Positions 1,975 through 61,140 of a stretch of 64,000 nt of DNA are shown here, one piece after another (position 1 is the stretch's first letter; every line of letters begins with the position of its first letter). Source of the DNA: Hysterangium stoloniferum. Taxonomy: Eukaryota; Basidiomycota; Agaricomycetes; Hysterangiales; Hysterangiaceae. The stretch covers positions 1 through 64,000 of the forward strand of contig WHVD01000186.1 in assembly GCA_015178975.1 (NCBI GenBank). Reading direction: 5' to 3'. The translations under genes were made by a program, and so were the position numbers. The notes beneath the pieces were generated by a model. That model saw nothing but the letters and a program-made list of their open reading frames with translations, did no database searches and had not been told where the DNA came from.

Positions 1975-2239
1975 CTGTGCTGTTCTGCAAGTAAACAAAT
2001 AGGGGAACTGGCAAGTTTGCTTTGTGAAATGCCACAGACTATTTTCCATCATGAAAATGACTCATATCTCATTCTGGGCATCAGTATCCAATTTCATCAT
2101 CACTGTAGTGCAACATTCACATAGCCACTAAGTTCTGTCATCTCAATTCTCAGACCTGCTGTCTACCATGAACATACTGTCTTGCAGATGGAATCTGTTG
2201 GTAGTGTCTGTCTACACTGATATCCAGTTACACTATAAG

Positions 2240-3990: not shown

Positions 3991-4009
3991 AGTATATGGC
4001 CCCTCTCTG

Positions 4010-4480
4010 GAATATAGAAGGTCCATTACGGAGTCCAAAGGGCATTCTCCTGAATTGCCACAGTCCTCAGTGGGATCTGAAGGTGGTCTTCAGTTTGTCT
4101 TCTTCTAACATTTCGAGTTGGGTAAAGCTGGCTAACACATCAAAGGAAGATAGGATGTTGAATCCTGAAAGTGCTTGCATTATTTCAGACTGACGTGACA
4201 ACAGGAATTCATCAGGAACTGTTAGGCTGTTCAACTTCCTATAGTCAATCACCACTTGTAGTTTCCCATTGTGATAGACTACAAAGGCTGGCACCCCCCA
4301 AGGACTCTTCAATGGTTCGATTATTCCCTGTTGAAACCAGGTATCCATTTGTTCATCAATGACCTTCCTATTGGCCCAGACCCACTCCCCAAACTGGTGG
4401 GAATGCCTGTCATGTTGTCCTGGGAAGTGGAGTGCATCAATGATGACATCCCATAATTACCTGTACTGTGCTCAACGTTT
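4010..4480 (-). pseudogene. Ty3/gypsy reverse transcriptase fragment
   Basis: On the minus strand this encodes the N-terminal part of a gypsy reverse transcriptase: 'QGIIEPLKSPWGVPAFVVYH' followed by 'VIDYRKLNSLT' and, in another frame, 'MPFGLRNGPSIFQ'. The YxDD catalytic box would come later and is absent because the fragment runs into the tandem repeat at about 4010. On the minus strand it lies downstream of the chromodomain of the neighbouring gypsy pol, the wrong order for one element. It is therefore a separate insertion or a rearranged piece. Frameshifts and truncation at both ends show it is dead. Confidence 0.8.
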
Positions 4481-4841
4481 TCAGTATGAGATGATGTGGT
4501 AAAAGTATCAATAGCTTGAGGTCATGGTATTCCTTTGAAGTTGGGGAGCCTGGGTTTGGTTTGTTGTTCCTGCAACATAGTGTACTGGCTCATGAGATTG
4601 ACGTGGAGGGAAGAGAAAGGGGGATAAAATTTTCTTTAGCAAATTCACATATTTTATATTAATTTTAAGCTCTGCTCAGTTATTGAGGTGAAAGGCCAAG
4701 GGGAATGAATAAAGGAGGGTAGAGTTAAAAAGTAATAAACAGTGTTCTTGTCATGAAAAGGTGAAATAATTGTTAGATTTGATAGATAGTTTTGTAAGCT
4801 CTGAGAAGAGTGGGGGCATTACGAAGGTCATTGCCATTTAA
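4481..4841. other. Non-coding sequence between gypsy fragments
   Basis: AT-rich sequence between the RT fragment and the chromodomain end of the next gypsy fragment. It may be 3' untranslated or LTR sequence of the element, but no TG...CA boundary was found. Confidence 0.4.
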
Positions 4842-7610
4842 CTAAGTGTCCTCTTCCGGTCCATATCCTTTCCATTGGACTTGAAAAAGGAGTTGATTTT
4901 GATGCTTTTTGTGTCCCACTATAGCCTCTACTTTGTACTCCTCATCGTTATGGTCTAGTTCCCAAGGGTTTTCAAGTAGTGCCCTTGATCCAAATTCCTT
5001 GGGGGAGAAATGGTACTTTTTAAGATGGTCTCGGTTGATCACACTGGAGGCATCCTAAGGTTTTTGGAGTTGGAGAACCTTCTGAAAATCCTATGATTTG
5101 GCCAAATTCTTTAAGAGTTCTTTGAACTGATAAATTGTTTGAAAATTTTTTCTTTTAGTAGGATTTTCTAAAGTTGAAAATCATATCTGAAAACTTTAAA
5201 TATTTGTATCAGGACATCTGAGGAAACATCATTAGTTAGAGTTTCTTGATACAAATTTTTAAAGTTTTCAGATATAGTTTTTCACTTTGGAAAATCCTAC
5301 TAAAACTTAAAATTTCTAAACAATATATCAGTTCAAACAATTCTTAGAAAATTTGGCCAAATATTAGAATTTTTGGAAGGTTTTCAAAGTCCAAAAATCT
5401 TGGGATGTCTCCAGTGTCACAGGATGTATTTGATATTCTGAGGGAATGTGGAGTCGAAATACTTGAGGATTGATCTTCTCCAAGACTTCGAACGGTCCTA
5501 TCCGTCTTTGTATGAGTTTCCTCCCAGGTCCTTTGGCTTCGATGAGCTCAAGAGAATGAGGATTGATTAGAACATAATCTCCTTCTGAGATATCTTCCAC
5601 TGATCTCCTTTTTTATTTGTAGCTGCGAGCTTGCCTTTCTTGTGCTCACGCAATTGAATCTCACACCACCTGTCGATGGTTCTCCAGTTCTAAGATCCAT
5701 TGGTCAGCCAAGGGGTTATCCAACAATTCTCTGGGAACCACAGGGTCATCCCCTCCTAGGCAGCGAGACATTCCTCTCAGCAAGTATCCCATCAGCAAAA
5801 AGGCCAGTGCGTAGCTTGTTGAACTCTGAACTATCGAATTGTAGGTATGGGCCACCACTTGAGTCCATTTAAACCATTCCTCTTTCAAAGAAGCACAGTA
5901 CACTCTGAGCATTTGCTCAACGATAGCATTGGTGTTCTCCATTTGATTGTCAGTTTGAGGATGATGGGATGAGGATACCACGAGGTGCTTCCATATACCT
6001 TGCCGACCTCTCTCCAGAACCTACAGGTCCATCTCTTATCTCAATCACAGATTATCCTTGAGGGTAAGCCAAAGGGAGTGGCTACTTTATTCACAAAAAT
6101 TTGCGTGAATCCTTCTGCAGATACATCTGAGGTCGTGGGCTCACAAATTAAGAAACATATGAGTTTATCCACAGTGACAAAGATGGCGGAGTAAGCACCC
6201 TCTGCAGAAGGTGGCAATCCAGGAATTAGGTCCATTGAGACAACCTCAAATGGCCTTAAGGGTACTTCTGTGGGTCAAAGAGCTCCTTGTCGAGCAGAAT
6301 AATCAACCTTAGTTTTCTGGCATATGTCACAGCCGCAAGTGTACACCACACAGTCCTGCAACATCCTCGGCCAGAAAAATTGGTCCTTCATTAGCTGAAA
6401 AAGTCTGTGACCACCCACATGAGCTCCTTCGAAGGGATTGTTGTGTATCAATTTGAGTATGGTAGACATCATACTGTTAGGTATACAGATTCGACTTTTC
6501 CAGTCCAAATCTCAAAAAAACAGTAACTTATTCTTGCCGATGAAATAGTGAGAAGGGGTAGCTACCACGTTTGGGGAAATGGGATCGGCAGCGTAATGAT
6601 TTCTGAAGGTGGGATCTTTCTGATATCCGTCATGAAGTTCCTTAGTGTAATTCTCGTCGATTTCTATAAGCAATTGGGGATTCGAGAGAGTAAAGTTTGC
6701 CTCATCAATTTCATTGTTTCTGGGGAGGTTGTGCAGATCCCATTTTATTTGGGGGACCTCTTCCATCGTTCCAATCGGTTCAACTAACTTGTGATGAGTG
6801 AGAAAGATGGCCTTTTCCACTGGTTTGTTCTCCCATAATGTCTCGTTGTCATTCCAATTGTAAGAATCTGCTATGATTGGTAAGAGGTCATCTCTTGTGG
6901 GACTAGCACAGTCAGGTACTCGAGGGAGTCTAGACAGTGGGTCAACATTGCTGTGTATTCATCCCGCTTGATGTAGGATTTCTAGACCAGGGTATGCAGC
7001 GTATACTGCCCCCCATGCGGCCAGTCGACGATTGGTGTTCTCGTAAGATCTGGCCCATTGTAACGCCACGTGGTCAGTGATCAGAAGTATATGTTCTCCT
7101 TTGATAAAGGGCTGGAAATGGATTAGTCCCTCTTTAGCGGCTAACACCTCTCACTCCATGGCTGAGTAGTTACATTCTGCTTTCTTGAGTGTGTGGCTCC
7201 AATAGGCGATGACACGGTCAACAGTGACACTGGTGTCATCAAAATCTGAGGCCCAGGAATCTGTCCAAGTGAATTCTGGCTCCTTGGTTTTTTAACGGGT
7301 GATGAAAATGGGCACATCTCGAGATTGATTGAAGGCCGATCTTGCTTGGGCATAGATTTTGGTGTCTTTTAGATCCTTGAGCATCATTTTCTGTATTTGT
7401 TGGAGACAACATCCAATGCGAAGTCCAAAGTGTCCATGTATAGCCAATAAGGCATGCTGCTCATGGGGTGTCTGAGTACTGGAGCAGAGCCCAGCACAAC
7501 TTTGATGTCTTCAAAAGCTCTGGCATGTTCAGAATCCCAAGTCCAACAACCTCCTTTCTTTAAGAGGTTGAAGAGCGGAGCAACTGTCGGGTAGTGCAGC
7601 CATGATATAC
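4842..7610 (-). pseudogene. Ty3/gypsy pol fragment: RNase H, integrase, chromodomain
   Basis: Minus-strand remnant of a chromovirus-type gypsy retrotransposon. Going downstream: the connection and RNase H region (about 7600-6960, 'LLITDHVALQWARSYENTNR'); the integrase zinc-binding HHCC module (6508-6275, 'HVGGHRLFQLM' and 'CGCDICQKTK'); the integrase core (about 6235-5660, 'IFVTVDKLICF', 'IICD' and 'HHPQTDNQMEN', fitting the D, D and E positions); the integrase C-terminus (5600-5364); and a chromodomain (5042-4842, 'FQVQWKGYGPEEDT'). Chromodomains on gypsy integrases direct insertion to modified chromatin. Several stops and frame changes break the ORF, and a 375-bp foldback element sits between integrase and chromodomain. 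RT, protease and gag are missing. Confidence 0.88.
5042..5416. mobile_element. Foldback MITE with CACTG ends (CACTA/EnSpm-like), 375 bp
   Basis: The segment is one long imperfect palindrome. It starts CACTGGAGGCATCC and ends GGATGTCTCCAGTG; the arms pair along most of 5042-5215 and 5249-5416 around a ~33-nt loop. A TCA triplet flanks both sides (5039-5041 and 5417-5419). A 3-bp duplication with CACT(A/G) ends is the signature of CACTA/EnSpm-type elements. The insertion point is inside the gypsy pol frame; leaving it out joins 'IHPV' directly to 'INRDHLKKYH' in frame, which fixes both ends of the element. Confidence 0.75.
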
Positions 7611-8511
7611 CCTACCTAGTGGATGGAAACGGTATTTGAAATATGATCGGAACATAGATGCATCGCTAATTACAATTTGAATATGAGCGTATAGTTTCCA
7701 ATTATAATACTGTACTACTTGTAGTTCAACCAGAACACCTCACTTCCGGGAGCACTACTACTACTCCTGAGTTTAGATAGCTCGCGCTGTCGGAGATGGC
7801 TTCACCTACAGGTGAGTCCACCACCCAGAAAAGTCACACAATGTATTGAAGGAAACTGGTCATTATTTGTGGCTGCCTTCAGTTTCGGTTGAGGACTCAG
7901 TGATTTTGCAGACAGGCTTACAATGGATCTTGGGGGGTGGGGTTGCCAACATATCACATGAAGGCTTGCAACCCAAATGTTCGCTGCCTTGTGATACAGC
8001 TGAGAATGACGTAAAAACGACTTATTACGTCTTGATGAGGCAATTCAGATAAGAAGAAACGATGATCCCGAGTCCCTAACTTGAACGATAGCAGGAGTGT
8101 GCCAGTTTCAAGAATGCATATTTGGTCGTCCATTTATTCTTGCACAAGATATGTTGATTACTAAGACACACTCCCTTGTACATTAAAATACTAGCAAGCA
8201 GCTAGGTTTTAAATCTTGGAGGTTCTTGTGTTTCCAAAAAATAAACCTGTACTTGGCGTCACACATCTAATGATTCATTCCACCATGGGAAGTACATGAC
8301 TCCATTGAGACTGGTAAAAGCTCTATCTACGTTGTATCCATGCCCCTTCCTGTTATTTGACTGACGACAAGCCCTTTTGCGATCTTGGATTTATTCTTTC
8401 ACATCGTGGGAGATTCAATCGGAGCCGATCAGGAGATAGTGTGCTTTTGGCAACTTTTCCGTCGAAGAGCAAATAAGAGTACTTTATTTCAACAATGTGA
8501 GTGTTATCTGG
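7611..8511. other. Unassigned sequence
   Basis: The gypsy homology stops near 7610. A short open frame (7846-8052) has no recognisable family, and no intron pattern supports a gene. Confidence 0.4.
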
Positions 8512-12389: not shown

Positions 12390-14126
12390 CAGACCCCTGG
12401 CATGAGGAAGAATGCTCTATGGGAATCAAATCCACCAATCGTGGTCACATCCTTCTCAGTGAAACTGAAGATAAAACCGTCCCTAGGAGATCTAACATGA
12501 AACAAGGTAAGAAACACAGCAAGTTCTTTTTCAAATGAAGCCACAAGACAAGCATCACTAAACCCCCAAAGGAGTGCTGGATTTGTGGGAGTTTGGAGCA
12601 TTTCAAGATCAACTGCCCTCATGCAGGTAGGATGTCACATTACATCTCTATTAAAAAATGCTCCACACAGAACCCAACCGAGGAGGCAGAGGATCAGAGG
12701 GCTTATGAAATGGTTTATGGATTAAGCATACAGGGACAAGTACATAATGTTGATGAGGAATTGATTTTCATTTCTGTCTACCTTCCTCAATCAGAGAACG
12801 ACATCATTTTAGATGTGATTTCACCTTCAAATGAGAACAAAGCATCACAAGTCTATGTCTCCATATCAGACTCTGAAGCAGATGACTCTGTTCCGAATGC
12901 TACACCCAAGGTACTTTACGGTAGACGTGTCAGGAGGGACATCAAACTGGCCACAAAAAAGGAAAGTAAACGACCCAAGGTCCAATACCCTCGATCCAGT
13001 CAGCTTATGAAGGAGGATTTGACCATCATTTACCACAGAAGGGATCCCCCCAATGGATACCCCAGTATAGGGATCTCGGCATTACACGTCTATGGATGCA
13101 TAGGGAACTCAGAAGCCTCTAATCCTATCACAATCAGGCTGGACACTGCGGCCAACCTTTCCTTAATTTTGGAGGATTTCTATAAGGAACTAGAAGACTG
13201 CCCCAAGCTCAAACAAGGACTCAAGTTGCACCTTGTTCAGCTTACTGGTAATGCTAAAGTCTTAGGATACATCAATGTCCCCATTTACCTTGAAGACAAA
13301 ACCAGTATGCTCCTTAAATTTACTGCTGAAATATACATTGTCCGAGGTATGACTGTGCCAATTCTTCTTGGGGAGGACTTTCACATGAACTATGAGATTG
13401 GGACACTACGAGACCAGCCATTAGGCTCTAGATTGATTCTACCAGGGAGGGCAGGGTCTATCCTGTCCAGTTCCTCCAAAGAGCCTCAACCTTTAGCCTT
13501 CTTGATTAGCAAGATTCCCCTGGAGGAACAAACCAGACAAAGGGGTGTGTACTGAAAGAGTCACACGAGCCCTACAGGATTGTACTATAGAACCAGAATC
13601 AGCTCAATTAGTACCAATCCATGTTGGAGATCTTATCGGTGACCAATGGATAGTGGAGGGAGTCATCTTGCAGAATGACAATGGAAGTATACTAGCCGCT
13701 CCCACCACTGCTGTCTCTAGGGAACACACTGTGATACCTCTCACTAATCCCTCTCTGACACCATGAATCATTAGGTGAGGGGAAACTGTTGGATTAATTC
13801 ACGACACGAACAAATGGGCTCAGACGCCTAGATCTTCAACTGAGAAGGAATCAATGCAGTCAATGGCAACCAGGATCGCTCACCTCGTAGAGAGCCTATC
13901 AAGAATAGAAGAGGAGTGTGTCCTTAACCCTCGACCTTCTGGACAGTCCCCAGAATGGGAACTTGCAGATGATTTCGACCCAGCAGGCCCTAAAATGTCA
14001 GAGGTTGCCACCACAGAAACATTTCATTTGGAAGACTTACATAAGTTGGTTAACATAGGACCTGACATTCCTACAGACATCTCCTCTCGCTTGGAGTCAG
14101 TCTTGACTAAGAATGTCTAAGCCTTT
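12390..14126 (+). pseudogene. Ty3/gypsy gag-protease fragment
   Basis: Plus-strand remnant of a second gypsy element. A CCHC zinc knuckle, 'CWICGSLEHFKINC', is at 12575-12616 and is the nucleocapsid end of Gag. The aspartic protease region follows: 'IRLDTAANLSLI' near 13135-13170, with D-T-A where D-T/S-G is usual, and 'VPILLGEDF' near 13357-13383. Further on, 'IEPESAQLVPIHVG' (13590-13632) and 'QWIVEGVIL' (13648-13674) match the linker before the reverse transcriptase in fungal gypsy elements. The last recognisable piece is 'GQVDVKVSVPLKEGMQPISM' near 14150. A stop at 13552 and later frame changes break it; RT, RNase H and integrase are missing. Confidence 0.8.
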
Positions 14127-22036: not shown

Positions 22037-22799
22037 CGCCTAAATGGGCCATGGGAAAGTGCCGCGCAGGGTGTCGCGACTGCCGCGAACACCTCAAAAT
22101 GCCCTCAAAGATACATTTACCTAGCATAAAATAGATATAGTTTTGTATATATTCTTCATAATATATCAATCTGTGTACTGGGGCCTTGTTACTTTACTTT
22201 AAGACTGTGTTTTGATGTTTAAAATTGTAAATTAACTCCTTTTCTAAGAGCATATATAATTTAAACTGGTATTTTCAGTATTACCATTTGAAATATAGCT
22301 ATGTTTTAGTTTAAAGCCAAAATGTATATTCGCGGCAATTGTTCACTTTTTGCGGCACCCCTCACAGCAGTGCGCGGCAACAGAGTGCTCTACAATTCGG
22401 GAGCCAAACCACACTATATCTTTTGGTGACACTCTGATCAACTTCTCTATTCATCCAGTGTTATTGAGCATTGTTTCTTTCCAGTTATTCTACACTTCTG
22501 TAAGAGTTTTGGGAATCTCTTGCTTTGGAAAGGTACTATCCTTTCTTTTAGATGGCTGTCTCTTTTTTTTCTTTTTATAGCTTGCTCTTTGATTAGGTTG
22601 GGAGTACCTGGCTGATAGATCATGACTATTAACTAAGAAGTACACCTACAAGGTCTTAGTGTGCTGTAGCCTTGTACCTGTATCACGGTAATTTGTATTG
22701 AAGAGAGATTTCCAGAAAACAATATAATATGGTTTTTCAGGTAATTCAATTCAGCCTTCAACATTGATAGCCTCTAACAAACCTAGAGCACATAATTCA

Positions 22800-24650
22800 A
22801 AAATGTCCTGTAACTGGGGCTGTACTACACCACTAATCTTTTTGAAACAAAGTGATGCCAGTATGAAAATGCTGTAGCATCCTTTCAAAAGTGAGTTTGC
22901 TGCCTTAGTTAATTCCTCATTATTTCGTGTATTGCCCTCTATAGTAGACCAAAACTGAACAATGGCTCCACAAAGCCATTTGCCTGAGCTTGACTGAAAT
23001 CAACAACACATGCAAACATTTCATCAGTTAATTGGTGTCCCTGCTTCTGACATTGAGAGGCAATGCTTTGAAACAGCATTAGAAAGTGTATTTTGTAATG
23101 ATTGGAAGTGGTGCCATTAGCTGCTGAGAAGAGAACTGGAACCCAACAATAAAGATGTCGAGAATATACAGATGATACTATAAGTACCCAATCACTCATT
23201 CTCCAATAGCCATGTGCAGCATCAGAGACAAATCCATGGACAGCATCATACTGGACAACATCTAGCATTATTTGTAGCTCCATCCAAGAAGTTTGAAGTA
23301 CAAGGATTGTAGTTGGGCCAACCTCACTATAACATAAAAAATCCGGATGAGGAGATCCAAACTCAGCTAGCTGTTCCAATGCTGATTCTGTAGTCCCTCC
23401 AATAATCTTATTTCCCTTGTGAACAATTTTCTTCTCATACCAAACACAATCAACATTTAATAGAACTGGAGATATATCTGTGACAGATTTACCTGGACCA
23501 GAAAATCCAGGAATACCAACAGCTAATTGTAGTGATCCCATTTTTGGATGTTCCTGAAATATTGTGTAGAACTGAAAGCCTTCATTAGGAAGAAGATGGA
23601 GTCTATGGGTGGGTCATTGGTGAAGATGTGTCCCACCATTGTGATACAGTGACTCACAAAACCTTTCCAATGTTTGGAGTTTGCATATTGGCAAACTGCT
23701 ACCAGGGGAGACAAAATAGTAAAAAATATCAAAAATTCACACTAGATAGCTAAACATGTATAGAATTGTGGCCTAGAATATTATTACATAATATGTATTT
23801 TTGGGCATGCTAAAAATAGTTTAGTCAGGCCTGCTCATTGGAAAGGTTTTGTGGCTGATGATTATGATGCAATATATGCTATATTTTAATACTTGGCATA
23901 CCCTCCCTTGGCCTTTATGACTGCCTCAACCCTCCTTGAAATTTCTTGCTATTTTCTCTCCCCTGGTGGCAGTCTGCCGATATGCAAACTCCAAACATTG
24001 GAAAGGTTTTGTGAGTCACTGTACATAATCCCATGCTTATAATGAATAAGCCTGGACAATACAGTATATTGCATGTCACATGATGTAAATTCCATCCACA
24101 ATCACAACCACGGTTTAATTGCTTTTGAATACCAGCATCTCTGGTCTGAGGCCAAATGACAATATCACAGTCAGGATTTTTGCAATGTATGATACCCAAA
24201 CATTTACACTTTGTATGCTTTCCATTATCTAAAGTTGGAGAATTTATATCATGATGTTTATTCCCACCTAGGACTGTGGTTGCCCAGTGAACCATAACTT
24301 GTCGAGGGCTTCATATTCAGAATGTGTAAACTGATATGACCATTCACCATCAGGCCATCCATCCCAGTCTTGAACTTTTCTATTCTCCATTGGTCCAATA
24401 GATGGTTGTAGAGCCTTGAGATGATTCCTAGACATGAAGTTGGGAGATGGTGATGATTGCTCTGGTTTTGATAAGGGAACTGAGGGAGTAGTAATGGTAA
24501 TTTTGGGCTTTGGTGGCTTGGAAGCAATATCATCAGGAATAGTGTGAGGTAGGGTGAATATAGATGGAGTAATGTTATTTGGATTTAAAAAATAACCAAA
24601 AGGATTTTCTATCAATAATGAATTACTTATTCTGTATTAAATAATTGAGT
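22800..24650 (-). pseudogene. MULE transposase N-terminal half, inverted block
   Basis: Minus-strand frames carry the zinc-finger and catalytic regions of the same transposase as at 41.4-43.5 kb. At 24615-24258 is the N-terminal region with 'CDGWPDGEWSYQF'-type sequence. At 24295-24060 is the GCM/WRKY-like finger 'HCKNPDCDIVIWPQTRDAG'. At 23541-22939 is the DDE core, 'QYDAVHGFVSDAAHGYW' and 'CVVDFSQAQANGFV'. Here the codon before YDAVHG is CAG, where the other copy has a TAG stop. A TGA at 23614-23616 is shared with the other copy. The Tc1 derivative at 23647 splits it further. Confidence 0.85.
23647..24021 (-). mobile_element. Internally deleted Tc1-like element (375 bp)
   Basis: The ends CAGTGACTCACAAAACC and the inverse GGTTTTGTGAGTCACTG are flanked by TA (23645-23646 and 24022-24023). 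The site 23647-23857 is again a 211-bp TIR unit with an inner inverted tip (ATTGGAAAGGTTTTGTGGCTG). The minus strand retains the last codons of a transposase, 'RRVEAVIKAKGGYAKY', near 23895-23945, matching the C-terminus of the element at 9209. The other MULE copy has the uninterrupted site ('gggattatgtatcacaatgg' at 42207), which confirms the boundaries. Confidence 0.88.
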
Positions 24651-25087
24651 ATAGCTTGTACCTTCCAGGTCATAACCAGGTAACATCATAGGTGGATAAG
24701 GTCCATTATGGTATAGTCCAGCAACTACATATATAATTTAGTGAAATAAAGAAATTATTAAAGGAAACTTGGCATACCTTTTCCAGGAATAGATATTGTT
24801 GGTTTATGGTCTTTGGGATTGACAATATCAGATCTGGGGTGAAGCCCAAATAATTTATGAAAATAGTGGAACAGAAACTATATAAATAGTATATAAGAAT
24901 TAGTTCAAAAGAGTTTTATAAGAATATACCATTAGAGAAATCAGACAGAACAGTATAAGGATTTAGATCTTATATATCCCTGGCTGGTATTAAAATTTCT
25001 GTTGCTATGGAAGTGACTAAAGCAGATAAAGATTAAACCTACATCTTAGAGTCTAGAGTTTAAGCCACTTACACTGTATAAGTGAAA

Positions 25088-25727
25088 AATTATTGGCTCC
25101 ATATGAACCTAGACTCTGGTGCAAGGATAAATGGATCCAAAGGGTACCTGCTGCCCATGCAATGACTCTTCTTATTCTGAAACAGTCCTACACCCAATTT
25201 ATCCCCTGATGGTCCACCTTTTGAGGATCTTCCTAAACATGCACAACTGTTTCAAGACCTACTGAAGCACTCATGGCATATACAGTATAGCCAGGTATCA
25301 CCATTCCCTGCTATAGATGTTGACAAAGAAGCCATTGGATTACTTGAACATGAAATTTTTGAAACTTCAAAAGCAGCAGGGCCTGCCAGCTGGCAACAGT
25401 AGGGATTGGATGCAGGTAACCATCAGAATAAATAGAGTCCTTATCCTTTTGTTCCCTACTCTTGGAATGAATGTGATATTCCTGAACCAGAGGAGACTAA
25501 ATATCAGGTATTTTAATATCAATTTCAAAATCTGATATAGATCAATGCTCATACTTTCATGTAGCATGGGCCAGAATTTAGTGAAGGCAGTGAACCAGAG
25601 ACTCAAGAATCTTACATTTTCCCTCCAAATAGTTCAAAACCCCAACCAGTTCAGAAGTGCAAAGCAGAGAGAATGTGTGAGGAAGCTCTGTTTGAGAAAC
25701 AGTCTGAAAGAATACTCAGAAAATGAC
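25088..25727 (+). pseudogene. MULE 1 distal coding fragment
   Basis: Plus-strand sequence colinear with 45930-46570 of the second MULE. It includes the 'MNLDSGAR' start and the 'LEHEIFETSKAAGPASWQQ' end of the last reading frame. It is interrupted at 25728 by the solo LTR; the sequence resumes after 26570 with 'cccaggctgaattataa', as in the intact copy at 46571. Confidence 0.8.
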
Positions 25728-26565
25728 TGTTACGACCGGACAATCCCGCCGGACTCCGGGCACTAACCTGTACGCCCCCACATACTACAAGCACCAATCG
25801 TCTGTTTATAGGATTTCCCGCCCGGACTCCGTTATGTCAAGACTCGTTACGTTCGACCTCATTACGACACATATCAGTCACCGGACTTCCCCCGGACTCC
25901 GTCTCTGTCTATGTCCGTCTTCGTCCCACGCATCAGTCACCGGTCCCCGCTTAGAATCCCGTTACCGCTCTAATCGAGCCCCGTTCCCGTTTTAGTCAAA
26001 TGACCTGTCACGATTTAGGACTCCGCTCCCGCTCCGTTTCCCGTTATGGGTTATGCTTTGTCACGATTCGGACTCCGCTCCATTCCGTTCCATTCCTAAC
26101 ACCAATTTGGTGTTTACTATTCCCGTTTCATGTTTTGTTAGTTTTGTTTCGCCATTACTGGATTTGGTATGTCATTCACTCCATGGTCTATATAAACTGG
26201 CAGGTGTTGTACATACAATCCAGTCAGAAAATTAGCTTAGATTCCCCCCAGTAATCTAATAATATTTTCCGCTCTAAAACCTTACTCGATTCACATCGCT
26301 CGCACTAGTCGGAGCCCAGGGGCTCCGGCGCATCTATCTCTCTCAACCAACTCGACTCACGACCCACGACCTCCGACTTACGACCCACGACCCGACTTAC
26401 GACCTACGACCCACAAACCCCGCCTGGACTCCCCGGGATCCCCGTCCGTCCGTTTGAAATTGGACAACACGATCTAGTGAGGGCGCAGCCTATAAGCTGA
26501 AGCCAAGTCCTACCGGATATCCCACAGGTTTCTCCGGAAACCCGGCCTGTGTGTGTATCCTAACA
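25728..26565 (+). mobile_element. Solo LTR (838 bp) inside MULE 1
   Basis: Starts TGTTACGACC and ends ATCCTAACA, flanked by ATGAC at 25723-25727 and 26566-26570. The empty site 'agaaaatgacccaggctgaa' is present in the second MULE at 46564. It is the same family as the LTR at 17060 in opposite orientation, but it retains its CpG sites, so it is the younger copy. Confidence 0.9.
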
Positions 26566-27116
26566 ATGACCCAGGCTGAATTATAAGGAGACTTAAAGGT
26601 ATTAAAATGTTTTAATACAAATAAAGAAGTTTTCTGTATATAATTTTCATTTTGAGAGCATATAAAACAATATAGAGCATTTCACACATGTATTTAACAT
26701 TTTTTTGAGCCTGTCATCCACAGGTAAAGTTATTTCATTGTTGCAGCAGTCACCTTCCTAATGAGGAAGTGTCGTGCACATACAAATTTTTGGTGTAAAC
26801 CTAGAACCCATGTTATTTACAGTTACATTTTGTTATTTTAGATTTTAATAAGTTTATTTGAGTATTAATATTACTCAAGGAAGGGCTAAAACTAAAGATA
26901 TGGCAATTAAAGTGGTGCACAAGGTATTTTTCACCAGGAAACTGGTACACTAGATGTAACAGTTCTCATGTTTTGATAATCTAATGTCAAATATAATTTT
27001 ATTTTGATAATTTATAATATAAAATTTACGAAGTATGTACTTAATTTGAAAAAAAGAAACATGTCGCGGCACTTGCGCGGCAGCGCGACACCCTGCGCGG
27101 CACTTTCCTATAGCCC

Positions 27117-40545: not shown

Positions 40546-41399
40546 ACCATGTGAGGGCCATGGGAAAGTGCTGTGCAGGTGTCGTGACTGCCGCAACTGC
40601 CGTGAACACCTCAAAATGCCTTCAAAGACACATTTACCTAGCATAAAATAGACATAGTTTTGTCTATGTTCTTCATAATATATCAATCTGTTCATTGGGG
40701 CCCTGTTAATTTACTTTAAGACTGGGTTTGGATGTTTAAAATTGTAAATAGTCCTTTTTTGAAGAGCATATATCATTTAAAATGGTATTTTGAGTATTAC
40801 CATTCAAAATATAGCTATGTTTTAGTTTGAAGCCAAAATGTATATTTGCGGCAATTGTCCACTTTTCGCGGCACCCCTCACAGCAGTGCGCAGCACCCCC
40901 ACAGTGAGATTCAATGTCAGAGTTTGAAATTTTTTCGAGCCTCGACAGTCAACCTCTCCAATTCTTGAGCCAAATCACACTATATCTTTTGGTGACACTC
41001 TGATCAGCTTCTCTATTCATCCAGTGTTATAGAGCATTGTTTCTTTCCAATTATTCTACACTTCTGTAAGAGTTTTGGGAATCTCTTGCTTTGGAAAGAT
41101 ACTATCCATTCTCTTAGATAGCCATCTCTTTTCCTTCTCTGCTGGTGGAATATCATATCAGTCAAGAAGCATCATCTGTGGACACTTTGGATCCCTGTGA
41201 ATGTATACTTTGGAAGTCTTGGCTTACTGGATCACTTACACTGCGTATTAGACTTTTTGAAATTTATTCAGCCATTCCTCTTATCTGGGAACTATCTCTC
41301 TTATTTCTCTAATGGTATATTATTATAATACCTTTTGAATTAATTCTTATATACTATTTATATAGTTTCTGTTCCATTATTTCCACAAGTTATTTGGAT

Positions 41400-43465
41400 T
41401 TCATTCCAGGCCTGATATTGTCAATATCAAAGACTGTGAACCAACAATATCTACCCCTGGAAAAGGTATGCCAAGTTTCCTTTAATCATTTCTATGTTTT
41501 ACTAAATTATATATGTAGTTGCTGGACTATTCAATCATGAACCTTATCCACCTAGGATGTTACCTGGTTATGACCTGGAAGGTACAAGTTATACTCAATT
41601 ATTTAATACAGAATAATTAATTCATTATTGATAGGAAATCCTTTTGGTTATTTTTTAAATCCAAATAACATTACTCCATCTATATTCACCTTACCTCACA
41701 CTATCCCTGATGATATTGCTTCCAAGCCACCAAAGCCCAAAATTACCATTACTACTCCCTCAGTTCCCTTATCAAAACCAGAGCAATCATCACCATCTCC
41801 CAACTTCATGTCTAGGAATCATCTCAAGGCTCTACAACCATCTATTGGACCAATGGAGAATAGAAAAGTTCAAGACTGTGATGGATGGCCTGATGGTGAA
41901 TGGTCATATCAGTTTACACATTCTGAATATGAAGCCCTCAACAAGTTATCTGTTCACTGGGCAACTGTAGTGCTAGGTGGGGATAAACACCATGATATAA
42001 ATTCTCCAACTTTAGATCATGGAAAGCATACAAAACATAAATGTTTGGGTATCATACATTGGAAAAATCCTGACTGTGATATTATCATTCAGCCTCAGAC
42101 TAGAGATACTGGTATTCAAAAACAATTAAACTGCAGTTGTGACTGTGGATGGAATTTACAACATGTGATATGCAATGTATTGTCCACAATTATTCATTAT
42201 AAGAATGGGATTATGTATCACAATGGTGGGACACACCTTCACCAATGACCTACTCATAGACTCCATCTTCTTGCCAATGAAAGATCTCAGCTCCACAAAA
42301 TATTTCAGCAACATCCAAAAATGGGATCACTACAATTAGCTGTTGGTATTCCTGGATTTTCTGGTCCAGGTAAATCTGTCACAGAGATATCCCCAGTTCT
42401 ATTAAATGTTGATCGTGTTCAGTATGAGAAGAAAATTGTTCACAAAGGAAATAATATTATTGGAGGGACTGCAGAATCAGGATTAGAACAGCTAGCTGAG
42501 TTTGGATCTCGTCATTCTGATTTTCTACGCTATAGTGAGGTTGGACCAACTACAATCCTTGTACTTCAAACTTCTTGGATGGAGCTACAAATAATGCTAG
42601 ATGTTGTTTAGTATGATGCTGTCCATGGATTTGTCTCTGATGCTGCACATGGTTATTGGAGAATGAGTGATTGGGTACTTATAGTATCATCTGTATATTC
42701 TCGACATCTTTATTGTTGGGTTCCATTTCTCTTCTCAGCAGCTAATGGCACCACTTCCAATCATTATCAAATACACTTTCTAATGCTGTTTCAAAGTATT
42801 GCCTCTCAATGTCAGAAGCAGGGACACCAATTAACTGATGAAATGTTTGCATGTGTTGTTGATTTCAGTCAAGCTCAAGCAAATGGCTTTGTGGAGGCTT
42901 TTATTCAGTTTTGGTCAACTATGGAAGGAAATACACGAAATAATGAGGAATTAAATAAGGCAGCAAATTCACTTTTGAAAGGATGCTATCAGCATTTTTG
43001 TACTGGCATCACTCATCTCAAAAGATTAGTGGTGTGGTACAGCCCCAGCTACAGGACACTTTTGAATCATGTGCTCTAGGTTTGTTAGAGGCTATCAATG
43101 AAGAGGCCTTTAAAGCACATGCTGCAGCACTTATACGTGACTTTCCAGGTGTTAAAAACTGGATACAATGGTGGCAGCAGGACAGAAATTCCCAAATGCT
43201 TTTTAAGCCATTTCGAACCATGAAAGAAGATCTCTGGGAGCGACTACCAGATACTACAAATGCTGAAGAAGCCATGCATTTTAGACTTTACAGTGGGCTT
43301 GGTCACAATTTAGGACTAATGGAAGGTCTAGAAGGATTATTTTCATTTGTGAATCTTTTAGAGATGCAGGGTATTTCCAAGCAATCAGGGATACCAGTGG
43401 CATATGGGACTATGAAACCTTGGACTAAGAATGCTCATTGGTTAGGACAAACTAAAGTCCACTGA
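41400..43465 (+). pseudogene. MULE transposase: GCM/WRKY-type zinc finger plus DDE core
   Basis: The frame begins upstream of an intron-like GT...AG pair (41582-41633) and continues 'GNPFGYFLNPNN'. A WRKY-GCM1-type zinc finger is at about 42027-42170 ('KHKCLGIIHWKNPDCDIIIQ' ... 'CDCGWNLQHVIC'), a DNA-binding fold known in fungal MULEs. The catalytic core follows: 'YDAVHGFVSDAAHGYWRMSD' (42612-42671), 'CVVDFSQAQANGF' (42852-42890) and, after a one-base frame change near 43030, 'DTTNAEEAMHFRLYSGLGHN' (43252-43311). These are the likely D, D and E regions. Stops occur at 42246 (TGA), 42609 (TAG where the other copy has CAG) and 43463 (TGA, probably from CGA). This copy cannot make an intact transposase. 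Confidence 0.82.
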
Positions 43466-44740
43466 AATCCAATTTCTAAAAGATTTCAAAATGATGGTGA
43501 TCCACCAGATACTGCTAAGGCACTTATCCTTGGTACCAAAGGCAAGAAAAAGAAATCTGTCTTTATTCCAGGATACCAATGGAAAGAAAACTCTTGTTGG
43601 TTGGATACTTCCCTTGAACTCATATACCAGGCAGTTGATCACCATTGGCAAGCATTACGTCAAGATTTTTCACAACTGGATACCCAGTTATTACTCTCAT
43701 TTTTATACCATATTTTTGAAGAGCGTTTAATTACTGTTGGTGGGATATTCAATAGTCAAGAGAATATATTGATTTCTACCAAACATGATCAATTACATGA
43801 ACAACTCCTTCAAAAGAGGTTTATCAAAACAATTAATGAGCCTGATGTTCTTATGGGTTGGTTTGAGAGGGCTATTGGAGAGTTTCATAGCCATTCTTGT
43901 GATAATGCAACACTTCCATTTCTTGAAGCCCAAATAATCCAACTCCACTCTTGTAAAGCCCAACAAGAGGCCCATTATCAACTCACCAGCCTGCCAAAGA
44001 CACGAACAGTTCACTACCTTCAACTCAAACACTACCAGATGGCAAATGGCAATTTGCAATCATGGTTATACTCACAGGTTCTTCCAAGCTCAGATCATAT
44101 AGAATCTTGTTGGAAAAGGTGTACAAGTGAACAGATATGCAAGAGTACACCCTCTATAATGGAAATCTGGATACACATTCCTATCATGCTTATTTTGTCC
44201 CAGAGACATGGTGTCTGCCTAAACAGCTCAAATTATTTCAGAATTCAAGCCATCTTGAAGGTCTCCACTATAACCTTGTAGGCAAAGCTATCTATTCACC
44301 ATCTGTTCAACACTTTACATCAAGGTTCCATAATGGCAATGCTATCTATGAGCATGATGGTTTACATCATTCAGGATCCTCAGTAAAAATACAAAAAAGT
44401 ACTATATCACGATACCTTGAAGAGAAGATTCAAACAGTTTCAGGTACATCTTCATATACTAATGCTGTTATATATGTATTGCAAGGTGGAATTAAAGCTC
44501 AGGAAGAGTTTCAGAAAATCCAAAACAAAGTCTTGGCTAATCACCATATTCTTGTAAACTATAATTCTCCAACAACACTCCCTCAGGCCACTCTAAATCC
44601 TACTATCTTTTCTCTATTTCCATCAGAGAAATGCTTTTGGCTTACAAATCCCAGTAGACTGGATATTCAAGATTATATTTGTATATCATCACAAGACATT
44701 CTTCATGTGCCTCCAAAGCAAATTAAAATCACCCCAAATG
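43466..44740 (+). pseudogene. USP-like cysteine peptidase region of the MULE
   Basis: In frame with the transposase after the TGA at 43463, the sequence reads 'GYQWKENSCWLDTSLELIYQ' (43573-43632), like the Cys box of ubiquitin-specific peptidases. After a frame change near 44130 comes 'HYNLVGKAIYSPSVQHFTSR' (44263-44322) and 'NAIYEHDGLHHSG' (44338-44376). This resembles the His box (GHF/Y) and the following Asp of the same fold. A ubiquitin- or SUMO-peptidase domain joined to a MULE transposase is known in plants with ULP1 and OTU types; a USP-like one here is my inference from these two boxes. An alternative is another papain-like fold. Confidence 0.6.
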
Positions 44741-45189
44741 CACATACCACACTCAAGAGACAACACAGCAATCAATCTCATATATCAATCCAAGCTGATG
44801 AAGATGATGAGGCATCCTATCCCCAACAGAAGCATCCTCAAAGATACCTTCAAAGAGTAGAGTCTGATAGTGAAGGCCAGGTAGTCATTCATAAAACAAA
44901 GCCCAAAAGACTTCCAAAACCTGTGTCTATGTCTACCTTATCTCCAATACCTGAGATTACTGGGATAAGTTCTAGTGCTTCAGTATTTCCAATCTCATGT
45001 CACTGTGGACACACTGGTGATGGTAATGAGGAAGCAGCTCAGGGGTTTACAAATGACTATATTCACTGTGATGAATGTCATAATTGGTCTCATATTGCTT
45101 GTCAACGTGAAGCAAGAGCTAGTAACCTTGGAAATAAGCCATTCATTTGTGATGAATGTGATATGGTTCAGATTCAACTGGCATTGTGA
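44741..45189 (+). pseudogene. PHD finger region of the MULE
   Basis: In the same frame as the peptidase His box, a low-complexity acidic and basic linker ('QADEDDEASYPQQKHPQRYL') leads to a Cys4-His-Cys3 finger. Its pieces are 'CHCGHTGDG' (44998-45024), 'DYIHCDECHNWSHIACQR' (45055-45108) and 'KPFICDECD' (45136-45162). The C-x-C, C-x2-C, H-x2-C, C-x2-C spacing is that of a PHD domain, which binds histone H3 tails. The frame ends with TGA at 45187-45189. Confidence 0.75.
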
Positions 45190-45356
45190 CCTCGATCAGA
45201 GCAGTATGTGAAATGGTTTTAACATTTGGATAACCTCTTACAGATGTGTTTTAAATAGTTCAAGAGCTCAACAGCTAAAAATCCATGTTATTAAACCTTT
45301 GCACAAGCGTCTCTTGTAAGTTTCCAAGTCAAATTCACTTTCAATTGTCTTAATTC

Positions 45357-46243
45357 ATGTTAATCACATTTAGACCTGGTTTGGGTGCCCTTGCCCAACA
45401 TGGGAAGTATTATTATCCTGTGCGGCTAATTCGACTTGATCATGATTCTGATCCCAAAAGATGGCATGTGAAATGGTGGCGACACAATCACTATCATAAT
45501 CTATCTCCAACAGAGTCATGGATTCCAGAACATGATGTCATTGACTCCTTGTGGAGAGACCAGAAGAACAGATGGCAAATTAGAGTAAGCTATTTAAAGT
45601 TATTTGTAGTTATTAAAAGAACTTAAGTTTGACTTTTATAGTTGGGAAAATGGGATTTGGTATGCTCATTACCAGATGAAGATGACAAGATCTTGGATTA
45701 CCTTCATTATCCATCATCTCCAATGTTTGATACTCTTCTGAAACCTCACCTTCTATTCCTTAACAAGCTGGTGAAGACACCAAAACAAGTTAGAAGAGAA
45801 GAATGTCCTGCTCTGGATTACTTGTACACTGGGAAGGCTATGTCTGAGTTGAAGGCTGAATCTACCTACCTTAAAAACCATGTCATATTGTTTTCTGGAA
45901 ATATCTCTTCAATACAAATTGCCATGATACATTATTGGCTGCATATGAACCTAGACTCTGGTGCAAGGAACAAGGATAAATGGATCCAGCGAGTACCTGC
46001 AGCCCATGCGATGACTCTTCTTATCCTGAAACAGTCTTATACTCAATTATCCCCTGATGGCCCACCTTTTGAGGATCTTCCCACACATACACAACTATTT
46101 CAAGACCTATTGAAGCACTCATGGTATATACAGATAGCCAGGTACCACTATTCCCTGCCATAGATGTTGACAAAGAAGCCATCAGATTACTTGAACATGA
46201 AATGTTTGAGACTTCAAAAGCAGCAGGGCCTGCCAGCTTTCAA
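45357..46243 (+). pseudogene. PWWP/Tudor-like module and C-terminal region of the MULE
   Basis: The first exon-like frame, 45357-45590, reads 'HGKYYYPVRLIRLDHDSDPK', 'RWHVKWWRHNHYHNLSPTES' and 'WIPEHDVIDSLWRDQKNRWQ', a beta-rich sequence with aromatic residues like PWWP or Tudor readers. A GTAAGC...TATAG intron (about 45585-45641) joins it to 'LGKWDLVCSLPDEDDK', which runs on to a TAG at 46161. Further homologous codons ('DKEAIRLLEHEMFETSKAAG') follow after that stop. The reader assignment is by pattern only. Confidence 0.5.
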
Positions 46244-46771
46244 CAATGGGGATTGGATGCAGGTAATCATCAGAATAAATGAGTCCATATACATTTATTC
46301 CCTACTCTTGGAATGAATGTGATATTCCTGAACCAGAGGAGACTGAATATCAGGTATTTTAGTATCAATTTCAAAATATGATATAGATTAATACTCATAC
46401 TTTCATATAGCATGGGCCAGAATTTAGTGAAGGCAGTGAAGCAGACACTCAAGAGCCCCACATTTTCCCTCTAAATAGACCAAAACCCCAACCAGCTCAG
46501 AAGCGCAAAGGAGAGGGACTGTGCAAGGAAGCTGTATTTGAGAAGCAGTCTGAAAGAATACTCAGAAAATGACCCAGGCTGAATTATAAAGAGACTTAGG
46601 GTATAAAATGTTTTAATGCAAATAAAAAGGTTTTCTGTACATAATATTCATTTTTTTTTAAGACATACATACAATATAATATAGAACTTCTAAAACATAA
46701 TATTTGACATTTTTTTGAGTCTTGGCCCCCTGACATAGAGCCTCCTTTGCCCTCTTTGCTTAGATCTTAAC

Positions 46772-47080
46772 AATATCCTGAAACAGTCCTACATCCAATT
46801 ATTCCCTGATAGTCTACCTTTTGAGGATCTTCCTAAACATACACAACTATTTCAAGACCTACTAAAGCACTTGTAGTATATACAGTATAGCGAGGTACTA
46901 CCATTCTCTGGCACCACCATAGATGTTGACAAAGAAGCCATTGGATTACTTGAACATGAAATGTTTCAAACTTCAAAAGCAGCAGGGTCTGCTGGTCTTC
47001 AATAATGGTGATTGTATGTAGGTAATCATCAGAAGAAATAGAGTCCATATTTTTTGTTCCCTGCTCTTGGAATGAAATCC
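46772..47080 (+). repeat. Internal partial duplication in MULE 2
   Basis: This segment repeats about 46018-46330 ('cctgaaacagtcctacatcc' versus 'cctgaaacagtcttatactc', and the 'gttgacaaagaagccat' block) with about 10% divergence. It ends abruptly at the telomere-type repeats. The sequence after 47115 ('gttttctgtacataattttc') resumes a copy of the region near 46630. Confidence 0.75.
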
Positions 47081-47084
47081 TTGA

Positions 47085-47114
47085 CCCTAACCCTAACCCT
47101 AACCCTAACCCTAA
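47085..47114. repeat. Interstitial telomere repeat (CCCTAA)x5
   Basis: Five perfect CCCTAA units, the complement of the TTAGGG telomere repeat used by most fungi. They lie exactly at the junction between the partial duplication and the resumed 3' end of MULE 2, about 530 bp from its right end. Confidence 0.92.
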
Positions 47115-47767
47115 TGTGTTTTCTGTACATAATTTTCATTTAAAGAGCATATAGCATAGAGCATTTGACATAAATTATTTGACATTTTCTAGAGCCTCTG
47201 TGATCCACAAGTAAAGTTCTTTCAGTGTCGCGGCAGTTCCTTCCTAATTAGGAAGTGCCGCGACAACTGCACAAAATTACCCAATTAGGAACTGCCGCGA
47301 CATACAGGTTTTTCGTGTAAACCTAGAACCCATGTCATTTAAAAGTTATATTTTGTTATTTTTGGACTCTAATAGGTTTATTTGAGACTCAATATTGCTC
47401 AAGGAAGGACTAAAATTAAGGATGTGCCAATTAAGTAGTGCCCAAGATATATTTCACCAGGAAACTGTACACTAGATATGATATTTATCATGTTTTGATG
47501 CTCTAATATCAAATATAATTGTATTTTTGTGAATTTCCGACACAAATTTGAACAAGTATCTACTTGTTTTGAAAAAAAAAAACATGTCGCGGCACTAGCG
47601 CGACAGCGCGACACCCTGCGCGGCACTTTCCTATAGCCCACCATGTGACAGCTGTCACACACGCGTTTCTTCCTTGAATTTGTGCTTAATGAATTATCTT
47701 AGCACGGAGGTCACAGCTGATTAACCAGGCTCTTGCTCTCCAAATCGGTGTTCCAAGTTGGTTCCAT

Positions 47768-59055: not shown

Positions 59056-61140
59056 CTACACGACAGACCAATCCCCAGCACCACCCCCTCTCGCTTTCAC
59101 CCCCACCTTCCCATCTACCCCCACCTCGACTACTATCTCTACACTCTTCTCTGGCTTACCCTTCTTGCCTTTAACGACAACACCCGCTCCCAATGCCACA
59201 TCCAACCCGCCCAGATATGTCTCTTTCTTTACGCCCCTCGCCTTCTCCTCAGTCGGCTCTGCGGGCTCCTCGTCTTCCTCGGCGTCGCTGTATACCTCGG
59301 CAGGAATAATCTTCGTCTGCACTACGTTGCTGGCTTCCCAAAACTCGAGGGGAAGAGTAAGGGTGCCAGCATCAGCAGTAACGGGAATCTTCACGGCCCG
59401 TTTCGCGGGGAGCGGTGTAGCCGTCGGGATGATCGGGATCCATGTCCCACCCTCCCCGTCCCCGTCCTCGCCCCCGTCAGCAGCAGGGACTAAAACGCCC
59501 ACCGTCTTCGCCGTAACGCCCACATCGACCGCATCGACCTTCATCTCCTCAGCAAGATCAATAATCCCCCGCGCGTGCAACGCACACCCCTTCGCCAGCA
59601 CCTCTTCGGCCTGTCCGATCTCCTCCTCCTTAGTGTGCTCCCCAAGCACGCCCGTAGAAACCAGCACCTGGCTCGCCGTCGACCCCGCACCGCCGCCGCC
59701 GCCGACCCACGCGACGCTATCCACCCACACACCCTCGTTACCGATCAGGTCCTTGACCGCAGCAGCGAGCCGCTCGAATACGGGGGTGAACAGCCCAAAG
59801 GCGCGTGTGCGGTTCACGGGCGCGCTGAAGTCGAGTCCTGCGTGCAGCGATTCGATGCTGATTTGGGTGCTGGTGGGTTTACCGCTGGAGCTGGGCGATG
59901 AGGAGGCGGTGAGAGAGCGCTTGATGTGTGGGAGAGAGAGGAAGAGTTTGATTTGTGCGCGGGTGGTGGACGGTGTCGGGGGGCAGACCTGTGTGTGGAG
60001 GGAGACAAGGAGATGAGAATGAGATGTCTCTGGTAGAAAAGAAGTAATGGAATGTTACGTACTTGAAGTGCTTCCCCTGTTTTCTTTGCGAACTCCTTTG
60101 CAAAGTATTTAACCAAAGTCTCGTCTATACTTCCCGGCTGTGCCGTCCCAAGCTCGGCAACCCGTTTGGAGCCCAAGGAGTGCACGAGGCCGGCACGGAT
60201 ACTAAGCAAGTTAATATTGACGTCCGTCGCGCCCCAATCGACGAGTAGCGTCGTGCGATCAGCCTGCTCCACGGGCGCATCAACAAGCACCGCGGCAGCC
60301 GCCGTATCCTCTTCCAAAAGCTGCAAAATGTTGATACCGGCTTCCTTGGCGGCCTCCTTCACAGCCTCCCTTTGTATGTCTGCAAACCATGCTGGAACGG
60401 TGATCACCACGCCCCTAGGCTTCACACCTAAAAAGTCCATGACTGATTGGTGTAGAGACTTGAAGAAGAGGACGGCTGCGTCGTGGGGAGTGAGATGCCT
60501 GGTCTGGGGCATAGGCTCGGAGCGAGGGGTTGCAAGGGGGGTAGGATGCTGGGTAGAGGGGCGGGAAGAAAGAGATGCGGGTGTAGTTAGTGGGGTGGGT
60601 GAGGGAATTAAGACCTGCACGGCATAGCAAGGTGTGTCTGGAAGACTTGGGTGTTGGATGAGGGGCGCAGATGGTGCAAGGCTCGCAAGTTCTGAAGAGG
60701 AAATCTCAGAAAATCTGTAGATTCGGATGAGAAATAGTAAGGCCAAGCATTGAAGATGGCTTACTTCTTGCCGAGGAAGTTTCTAAAATTGGTAATGGTA
60801 TTCTGCGCATTTTTGACGAGCTGGGGGAGCGCTTGGTTACCTACATACTATCGTATCATCAGTCTCTTGGGCTTGTGCTCATCTATGCGTAAAGCTAGCT
60901 CACCATCTCCTCTCCATTAAAGGATATCGCAGCAGCTATCTGCCTCTCTCCATCTTCATTCGCGATACATTCCGCCTTGCCCTCCTACAAAATCTCAAAT
61001 CGAGAAGGGAACCCAAGTGATACGAGACTCACTTTAGTGATAACGGCAATCGAAGCATACGCACTGCCAAAGTTGATCCCCACCACAGTCTCTCGCTCAT
61101 CCACCACGGCCACTGCTGGCTTTCCATTGGGTAGACTCAT
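59056..61140 (-). CDS. ssz1: Atypical Hsp70 SSZ1 (ribosome-associated complex)
   Basis: Ssz1 pairs with the J-protein zuotin at the ribosome exit and stimulates the Ssb Hsp70 acting on nascent chains. My model has five exons on the minus strand: 61140-61033, 60984-60904, 60847-60775, 60715-60063 and 59988-59056, giving 615 residues. The nucleotide-binding domain shows 'VVGINFGSAYASIAVITK', 'GKAECIANEDGERQIAAAIS', 'DFLGVKPRGVVITVPAWFAD' with 'QREAVKEAAKEAGINILQLL', and 'LLVDWGATDVNINLLSIRAG', a degenerate phosphate loop as in Ssz1. It continues 'QISIESLHAGLDFSAPVNRT' and 'VAWVGGGGGAGSTASQVLVS'. The protein is longer than yeast Ssz1 (538) through a Pro/Ser-rich insert near residues 110-150 and an acidic linker. 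An in-frame ATG at 61194 would add 18 residues but nearly touches the RCF1 start, so 61140 is preferred. Confidence 0.88.

Follow-up and report, generated by a model that had tools for sequence, protein, structure and literature searches.

The window, the whole stretch of DNA analysed here, comprises 64,000 nucleotides (64 kb) of Hysterangium stoloniferum (contig WHVD01000186.1, positions 1 to 64,000); all genome searches were made in the single 111 Mb genome of this fungus. Between 40555 and 47639 it contains a transposable element of 7,085 bp. Comparison with other copies makes it probable that this is a decayed, CpG-mutated member of a MuDRF-type family, that is, of Mutator-like elements (MULEs) with a GCM-type finger, and that its ancestor encoded one spliced multidomain protein which included a PHD finger. 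An original prediction had described, at 41400–46243, a MULE combining a GCM/WRKY finger, a DDE core, a peptidase resembling the ubiquitin-specific peptidases (USPs), a PHD finger and a PWWP/Tudor-like segment. That interval covers most of the coding part but falls short of the whole element. The features, in window coordinates, are as follows.

40546–40554: left 9-bp target-site duplication, ACCATGTGA, read directly and the same as 47640–47648
40555–40579, plus strand: left terminal inverted repeat, 25 nt, 84% complementary to 47615–47639
41877–42260, plus strand: GCM-type zinc finger (residues 44–171 of copy L009 mapped onto the window), with a stop at 42246–42248 in the window copy
42270–43440, plus strand: transposase core, disrupted in the window copy, with D..D..C-x2-H..E landmarks like those of MULEs
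43562–44440, plus strand: putative cysteine-peptidase-like segment (the box segment), with a Cys box at 43589–43618 and a His box from 44308; the frame breaks near 44200
44998–45159, plus strand: PHD finger, C-x-C...C-x2-C..H..C...C-x2-C, with a Trp two residues ahead of the His
45204–45243, plus strand: putative intron 1 (GTATGT...TTACAG), from a seven-copy alignment in which L013 is without the donor
45316–45373, plus strand: putative intron 2 (GTAAGT...TTTAG), same alignment, with small length differences and, in L007, a large insertion where it begins
45374–45584, plus strand: short strand-rich module, earlier called a PWWP/Tudor-like segment
45585–45641, plus strand: putative intron 3 (GTAAGC...TATAG), same alignment
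45642–46353, plus strand: conserved C-terminal domain with no assigned fold; frame broken near 46150 in the window copy
46354–46410, plus strand: putative intron 4 (GTATTT...ATAG), same alignment
46411–46572, plus strand: last exon, basic C-terminus and TGA stop, 54 codons counting the stop, by direct reading
46774–47076, plus strand: degenerate internal copy of C-terminal coding sequence (46022–46317), the two forming 87–89% direct repeats
47227–47301: the subterminal STGCCGCGAC motif in three exact copies (47227, 47255, 47292), which may be binding sites of the finger
47615–47639, minus strand: right terminal inverted repeat, 25 nt, pairing with 40555–40579
47640–47648: right 9-bp target-site duplication, ACCATGTGA, a perfect match to the left one

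The element and its copies

The terminal inverted repeats are imperfect, and the 9-bp duplication that flanks them is perfect. A genome search with a degenerate pattern of both ends gave 114 exact matches (54 forward, 60 reverse), and none were obtained with the reversed control. A second, shorter copy of the family lies in the window itself, at 22046–27116, with its own perfect 9-bp duplication, CGCCTAAAT; matches to the box segment and the PHD finger were not seen in it. The GCM–transposase part of this shorter copy is inverted relative to its own ends, and it carries an 88-nt inverted repeat (23645–23732 / 23936–24023).

The STGCCGCGAC motif, which was picked only after the ends had been inspected, occurs ten times in the window when up to one mismatch is allowed, compared with 1.5 expected. 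Since nine of the ten matches lie inside the two elements, the repeat is a candidate GCM site. Remnants like the degenerate C-terminal copy at 46774–47076 are also present in other copies of the element. Immediately after it, still inside the element, there is a short telomere-like CCCTAA run (about 47084–47115). In copy L010, on contig C232, a second family end begins five bases past the end of the first element (reverse strand, 7959–7965), in a tandem or nested arrangement.

Reading frame and module order

Across copies, one frame leads from the GCM finger to the PHD finger by way of a DD..C2H..E transposase core and a segment with the strings 'NSCWLD...QHFTSRF...YEHDG'. The exon structure was traced from about 41600 onward. 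The window copy is interrupted by stops at 42246–42248, 42609–42611, 43463–43465 and 45187–45189 and by frame changes near 43020, 44200 and 46150, and no fully open copy was found among the matches listed. Long parts of the frame are preserved elsewhere. In L009, one frame with two stops inside it (2095–5577) covers everything from the GCM finger through the complete PHD finger. L010 has an unbroken 592-aa frame that contains the box segment and the PHD finger, and on contigs C112 and C527 the GCM–transposase segment lies within open frames, 548 and 550 aa long.

Downstream of the PHD finger, four GT..AG blocks, deduced as introns from the aligned sequences of the seven copies, join up the strand-rich module, the conserved C-terminal domain (∼240 aa) and a basic tail, which ends at 46572. 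The C-terminal domain is open over 240 residues in L010, L011, L007 and L055. Some of the copy-to-copy length changes fall in the introns, and others lie in exons (L013, L055) or arise from inserts (L007, L045). The order of the modules is kept: the start of the C-terminal module lies on the same strand and at most 2.5 kb downstream in 29 of the 48 PHD places listed, in 25 of these at 442–460 bp, these counts being lower bounds, as are all our place counts for segments of the family (GCM/transposase open frames, PHD and C-terminal places).

The most likely ancestral product, as judged from these alignments, is thus one spliced protein with the order GCM finger, DDE transposase, putative peptidase-like segment, PHD finger, strand-rich module and C-terminal domain. 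The copy comparison and the 9-bp duplication bear out the proposal that the GCM finger, the transposase core, the quoted Cys- and His-box strings and the PHD finger are encoded in one direction inside the inverted repeats. In the window copy all the modules lie within these repeats, rather than as separate genes outside them.

Identity of the modules

The GCM-type finger is best seen in L009, where PF03615 is matched over model positions 4–133 of 140 with E = 0.00083 and 19.7 bits, the curated cut-off being 25. PF03615 matches two of the 19 aligned rows, many of which do not span the finger. The predicted WRKY-GCM1-type finger is therefore recovered in L009 but not in the window copy, whose own segment gives no PF03615 score. 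A search of the PDB returned two matches, the better of which, the mouse GCM domain 1odh (E = 0.15), is collinear through CLG-C and RP-I-D-QKQ-SC-C, and the Cys and His residues of the region are retained across copies.

Residue retention was counted after dropping 13 doubly counted loci and stretches below 60% identity. The landmarks of the transposase core are kept in nearly all copies (D298 in 21/22, D372 in 27/30, C413 in 27/28, H416 in 28/28 and E72 of the second part in 30/32), and we take their D..D..C-x2-H..E pattern to be that of MULE transposases. A PDB search with the GCM+DDE profile gave matches at chance level, and nothing was found when viral contigs were scanned with the DDE segment. 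A KDZ transposon was considered and rejected, no KDZ family being among the Pfam matches at E ≤ 5. The genome search with PF10551 found three other loci only (G000:C431:210444, C78:78139 and C309:6849), canonical MULE matches with similar scores, each in a 300-aa open frame; these are a different family from the window element.

The PHD finger of the window copy matches PF00628 with E = 0.0011 and 19.3 bits, below the cut-off of 24; seven of 41 members match, the best with E = 0.00053, under the Pfam cut-off where one is given. Compared as a profile with solved structures, it matches the PHD finger of PHF13 (E = 0.0031) and, more weakly, those of Bye1, Set3 and MLL5. The Cys4-His-Cys3 ligands are retained in 20/22 to 29/29 copies and the Trp before the His in 27/30. 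A Trp in this position belongs to the aromatic cage typical of PHD fingers that read H3K4me3. As far as sequence can establish it, the identity of the PHD finger is confirmed by these matches and by the kept ligands, as originally proposed, and H3K4me3 binding is predicted.

The case of the box segment is different. Its order and spacing, a Cys box, about 245 residues, a His box and then an Asp, are what we take to be USP-like. The residues concerned, NSC49WLD, QH294F and HD309G in P0001 numbering, are kept in 34/38, 33/35 and 28/32 copies, which is no better than their surroundings: positions reaching 97% conservation number 2/9 and 1/31 in the Cys and His boxes, compared with 66/293 overall. 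No Pfam family matches P0001, and the best peptidase hits, UCH (E = 0.1) and Peptidase_C12 (E = 0.089), each in one of 41 members, are not significant. PF15499 (USPL1, Peptidase C98) gave no genome match at E ≤ 1, its control matching 1/14 with none above the cut-off. An NCBIfam scan of 41 rows returned seven weak, unrelated families and no support for a peptidase, and a PDB search with P0001 gave chance-level matches only. When the segment was compared as a profile with the genome's own USPs, the score was 14.6, against a median of 12.7 for shuffled columns, 15.2 for the reversed profile and 12.3 for an unrelated GCM/DDE profile; the profile is shallow (effective number of sequences, Neff, 1.5), so that a distant relation could escape it, and one of the 60 shuffles gave an aberrant 258, above the real score. 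A structure prediction was also made: AlphaFold2, run on the box segment plus PHD finger with 41 rows, gave a mean predicted local distance difference test score (pLDDT) of 38.6, a model without a usable fold. A VTD-type deubiquitinase was rejected, as the Asp-x-His motif was not seen in the His box.

The proposal of a USP-like peptidase has therefore gained no significant match from Pfam, NCBIfam, the PDB or profile–profile comparison. These failures are an absence of proof from shallow data and not a disproof, and the segment may trim ubiquitin-like tags, with chances that are about even at best. In the genome itself, USP-family (PF00443) genes or gene fragments are greatly expanded, with 150 places listed, many of them clustered on contigs C1 (1.8–2.8 Mb), C113, C140, C145, C198 and C244. 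By eye, none of these 150 coincides with a listed place of the element, and scanning a host USP segment against viral contigs revealed no relative.

For the strand-rich module, the model shows four strands and a helix at low confidence (pLDDT 54.7). Foldseek gave 361 matches, the best with E = 0.78 and none significant, PWWP and MRG chromodomains among them, and no match to PWWP, Tudor or chromo families was found at the sequence level. The PWWP/Tudor-like assignment accordingly reduces to a low-confidence predicted strand pattern.

Constraint and decay

Substitutions between copies were compared with 200 random placements of the same changes, 15 doubly counted loci having been dropped and the stretches being 60–93% identical to the reference frames. 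Constraint, expressed as nonsynonymous/synonymous odds relative to random, is strongest in the PHD finger (0.42, 21 loci), the strand-rich module (0.47, 15 loci) and the C-terminal domain (0.52, 20 loci), followed by the linker (0.71, 31 loci), the DDE core (0.75, 21 loci) and the box segment (0.80, 35 loci). For each of these six, none of the 200 placements was as low as observed; for the GCM finger (0.81, 10 loci) seven were, and because related copies share changes all these counts are descriptions and not p-values. A version of the test that included the doubly counted loci gave similar values. The constraint on the downstream modules indicates that they are probably working parts of the element.

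In four close copies, C>T changes were found at 11 of 96 CpG sites, compared with 22/1860 at CA, 11/1527 at CT and 5/997 at CC. This excess fits methylated, silenced copies.

Interpretation and alternatives

Because of its GCM finger, we place the element with MuDRF, and it is likely to be a PHD-bearing member of that group. Several observations weigh against this reading. The Pfam MULE model does not match the transposase core, so that membership of the superfamily rests on the landmarks and the target duplications. Perfect 9-bp duplications were found in two of the eight elements whose ends were compared, both in the window, and in none of the six outside it, where the flanks agree at 6 of 9 bases on C54, 2 on C335, 1 on C262, 1 on C124, 2 on C11 and, by eye, none on C232; recombination or mispairing of ends may be the cause. 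The PF03615 and PF00628 scores lie below their cut-offs, and a whole-genome GCM search gave no match, its controls likewise giving none. The last part of the DDE region shows no constraint (odds 0.98, 28 loci, with 78 of the 200 placements as low). The evidence for a peptidase consists of motif strings, the other tests being negative, and a stop codon follows the PHD finger in four of the seven aligned copies.

That stop speaks for a reading in which the PHD finger, the strand-rich module and the C-terminal domain, or the last two of these, form a separately expressed second gene comparable to mudrB of MuDR. MULEs with two open reading frames are known (PMC6446971, Table 1), and the link to the C-terminus requires introns deduced from alignment. 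Against this, the PHD finger shares the open 592-aa frame with the box segment, and in L009 one frame spans the GCM and PHD fingers and all that lies between them. The stop is missing in three of the seven copies and sits where CpG decay would create one, and the GT..AG blocks downstream are phase-compatible, with length changes partly within them and the others in exons or inserts. A second gene is, on balance, improbable. Capture of host gene pieces, in the style of Pack-MULEs and without a role in transposition, would accord with the tendency of MULEs to acquire host gene fragments (PMC6446971), and would have been recent. However, the modules are present in divergent copies and show the strongest constraint of all the parts. 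The C-terminal domain has at least 156 matches, and among those listed there is no obvious gene of the host from which it could have come. Because of the kept order and the constraint, we reject capture as very improbable.

More serious is the alternative that the segment at 43.5–44.5 kb has a structural role, as a domain that separates transposase and PHD finger, and that its Cys and His strings look like USP boxes by coincidence; to this we give somewhat less than an even chance. The USP, UCH and USPL1 models all stay below significance on the segment, no listed PF00443 place falls on the element, the profile score is at the level of the controls, and the box residues are not unusually conserved. 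Conversely, chance would have to account for the USP-like order and spacing, and the segment is constrained as a whole; the shallow profile could miss a distant relation, and decay blurs the conservation of individual sites.

On the preferred reading, that of a decayed MuDRF-type element with one multidomain protein, transposition might proceed as follows. The GCM finger would bind the GC-rich ends and the subterminal CTGCCGCGAC repeats, and the transposase would move the element by cut-and-paste with 9-bp staggers, consistent with the duplications of the two window copies. The Trp-bearing PHD finger could tether the complex to nucleosomes of active genes and so guide insertion, and the box segment might take ubiquitin-like tags off the transposase itself, or off chromatin or repair proteins of the host. 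A more far-reaching reading, less likely than not, is that one MuDRF protein cuts DNA, acts as a new and highly divergent deconjugase of USP type and also reads active chromatin (with the PHD finger and a second barrel module), so that it finds such chromatin, clears ubiquitin marks there and inserts. Of the earlier suggestion that the element strips tags and reads chromatin, the PHD finger stands, with its binding predicted, but the enzyme is backed by motif strings and the second reader by predicted strands.

Should other mushrooms show the same layout, the transposase protein of the MuDRF lineage would include a histone-reader finger as one of its best-conserved pieces, and one could test directly whether chromatin guides the insertion of a eukaryotic cut-and-paste element. 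A box segment with deconjugase activity, if it has one, would add to the ubiquitin/SUMO peptidases that transposons have enlisted, after Ulp1, OTU, C19 and VTD.

Relation to known elements

MuDRF, described in 2011, has GCM and DDE in one protein and 9-bp duplications, and is reported from the Basidiomycota Puccinia, Melampsora, Laccaria, Schizophyllum and Coprinopsis and also from Naegleria (PMC3164196). The window element resembles it in the GCM finger N-terminal to the transposase and in the 9-bp duplication of both window copies. It differs in that the available account of MuDRF mentions no peptidase, PHD finger or further module (PMC3164196), a comparison made with this description and not with Repbase sequences. 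GCM-fingered fungal relatives of Mutator are thus already described, and the PHD finger and extra modules are a variation on known kinds. The novelty claimed for the domain mix holds to the extent that the accessible open-licence literature yielded no description of a fungal element of the GCM type that also carries a PHD finger, a peptidase or the further modules seen here; Repbase, outside that scope, may hold some unremarked.

Among other transposases, Ginger1-9_HM and Ulp1/PHD-bearing animal transposases likewise carry a C-terminal ubiquitin-like-protease domain and a PHD finger, and a figure legend aligns the Ulp1 and PHD domains across Ginger1 and Mutator transposases (PMC2836005). In contrast to the window element, Ginger1-9_HM has Ulp1 and not a USP-type segment and is a Ginger, not a MULE; GCM occurs 0 times in the available text of PMC2836005. 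In the Trichomonas vaginalis protein XP_001314237.1, a Peptidase C19 (USP) domain is joined to a DNA transposase. This protist protein belongs to the Transposase_11 family and has a reported C19 match (PMC2836005), unlike the window element. Rehavkus is MULE-related, with 9-bp duplications and a PHD finger in its transposase, but is found in arthropods and annelids, and neither GCM nor a peptidase is listed for it in the relevant part of PMC6446971. Deconjugating peptidases are also carried by Ulp1 MULEs of plants, hydra and lancelet, by the OTU-bearing MuDR-6_HM and by OTU/VTD Helitrons (PMC2836005, PMC6446971, PMC9741609). These differ in peptidase family, and VTDs have Asp-x-His, whereas the window element has the His before the Asp (PMC9741609). 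The available portions of PMC12730594 and PMC10799480 hold nothing bearing on the window element.

Other features of the window

Two further regions were noted by eye. At 12539–13555 (plus strand), an open frame with a CCHC-like knuckle looks like a retrotransposon gag-protease region, and at 59056–60782 (minus strand) the open frames look like a host gene of the Hsp70 family.

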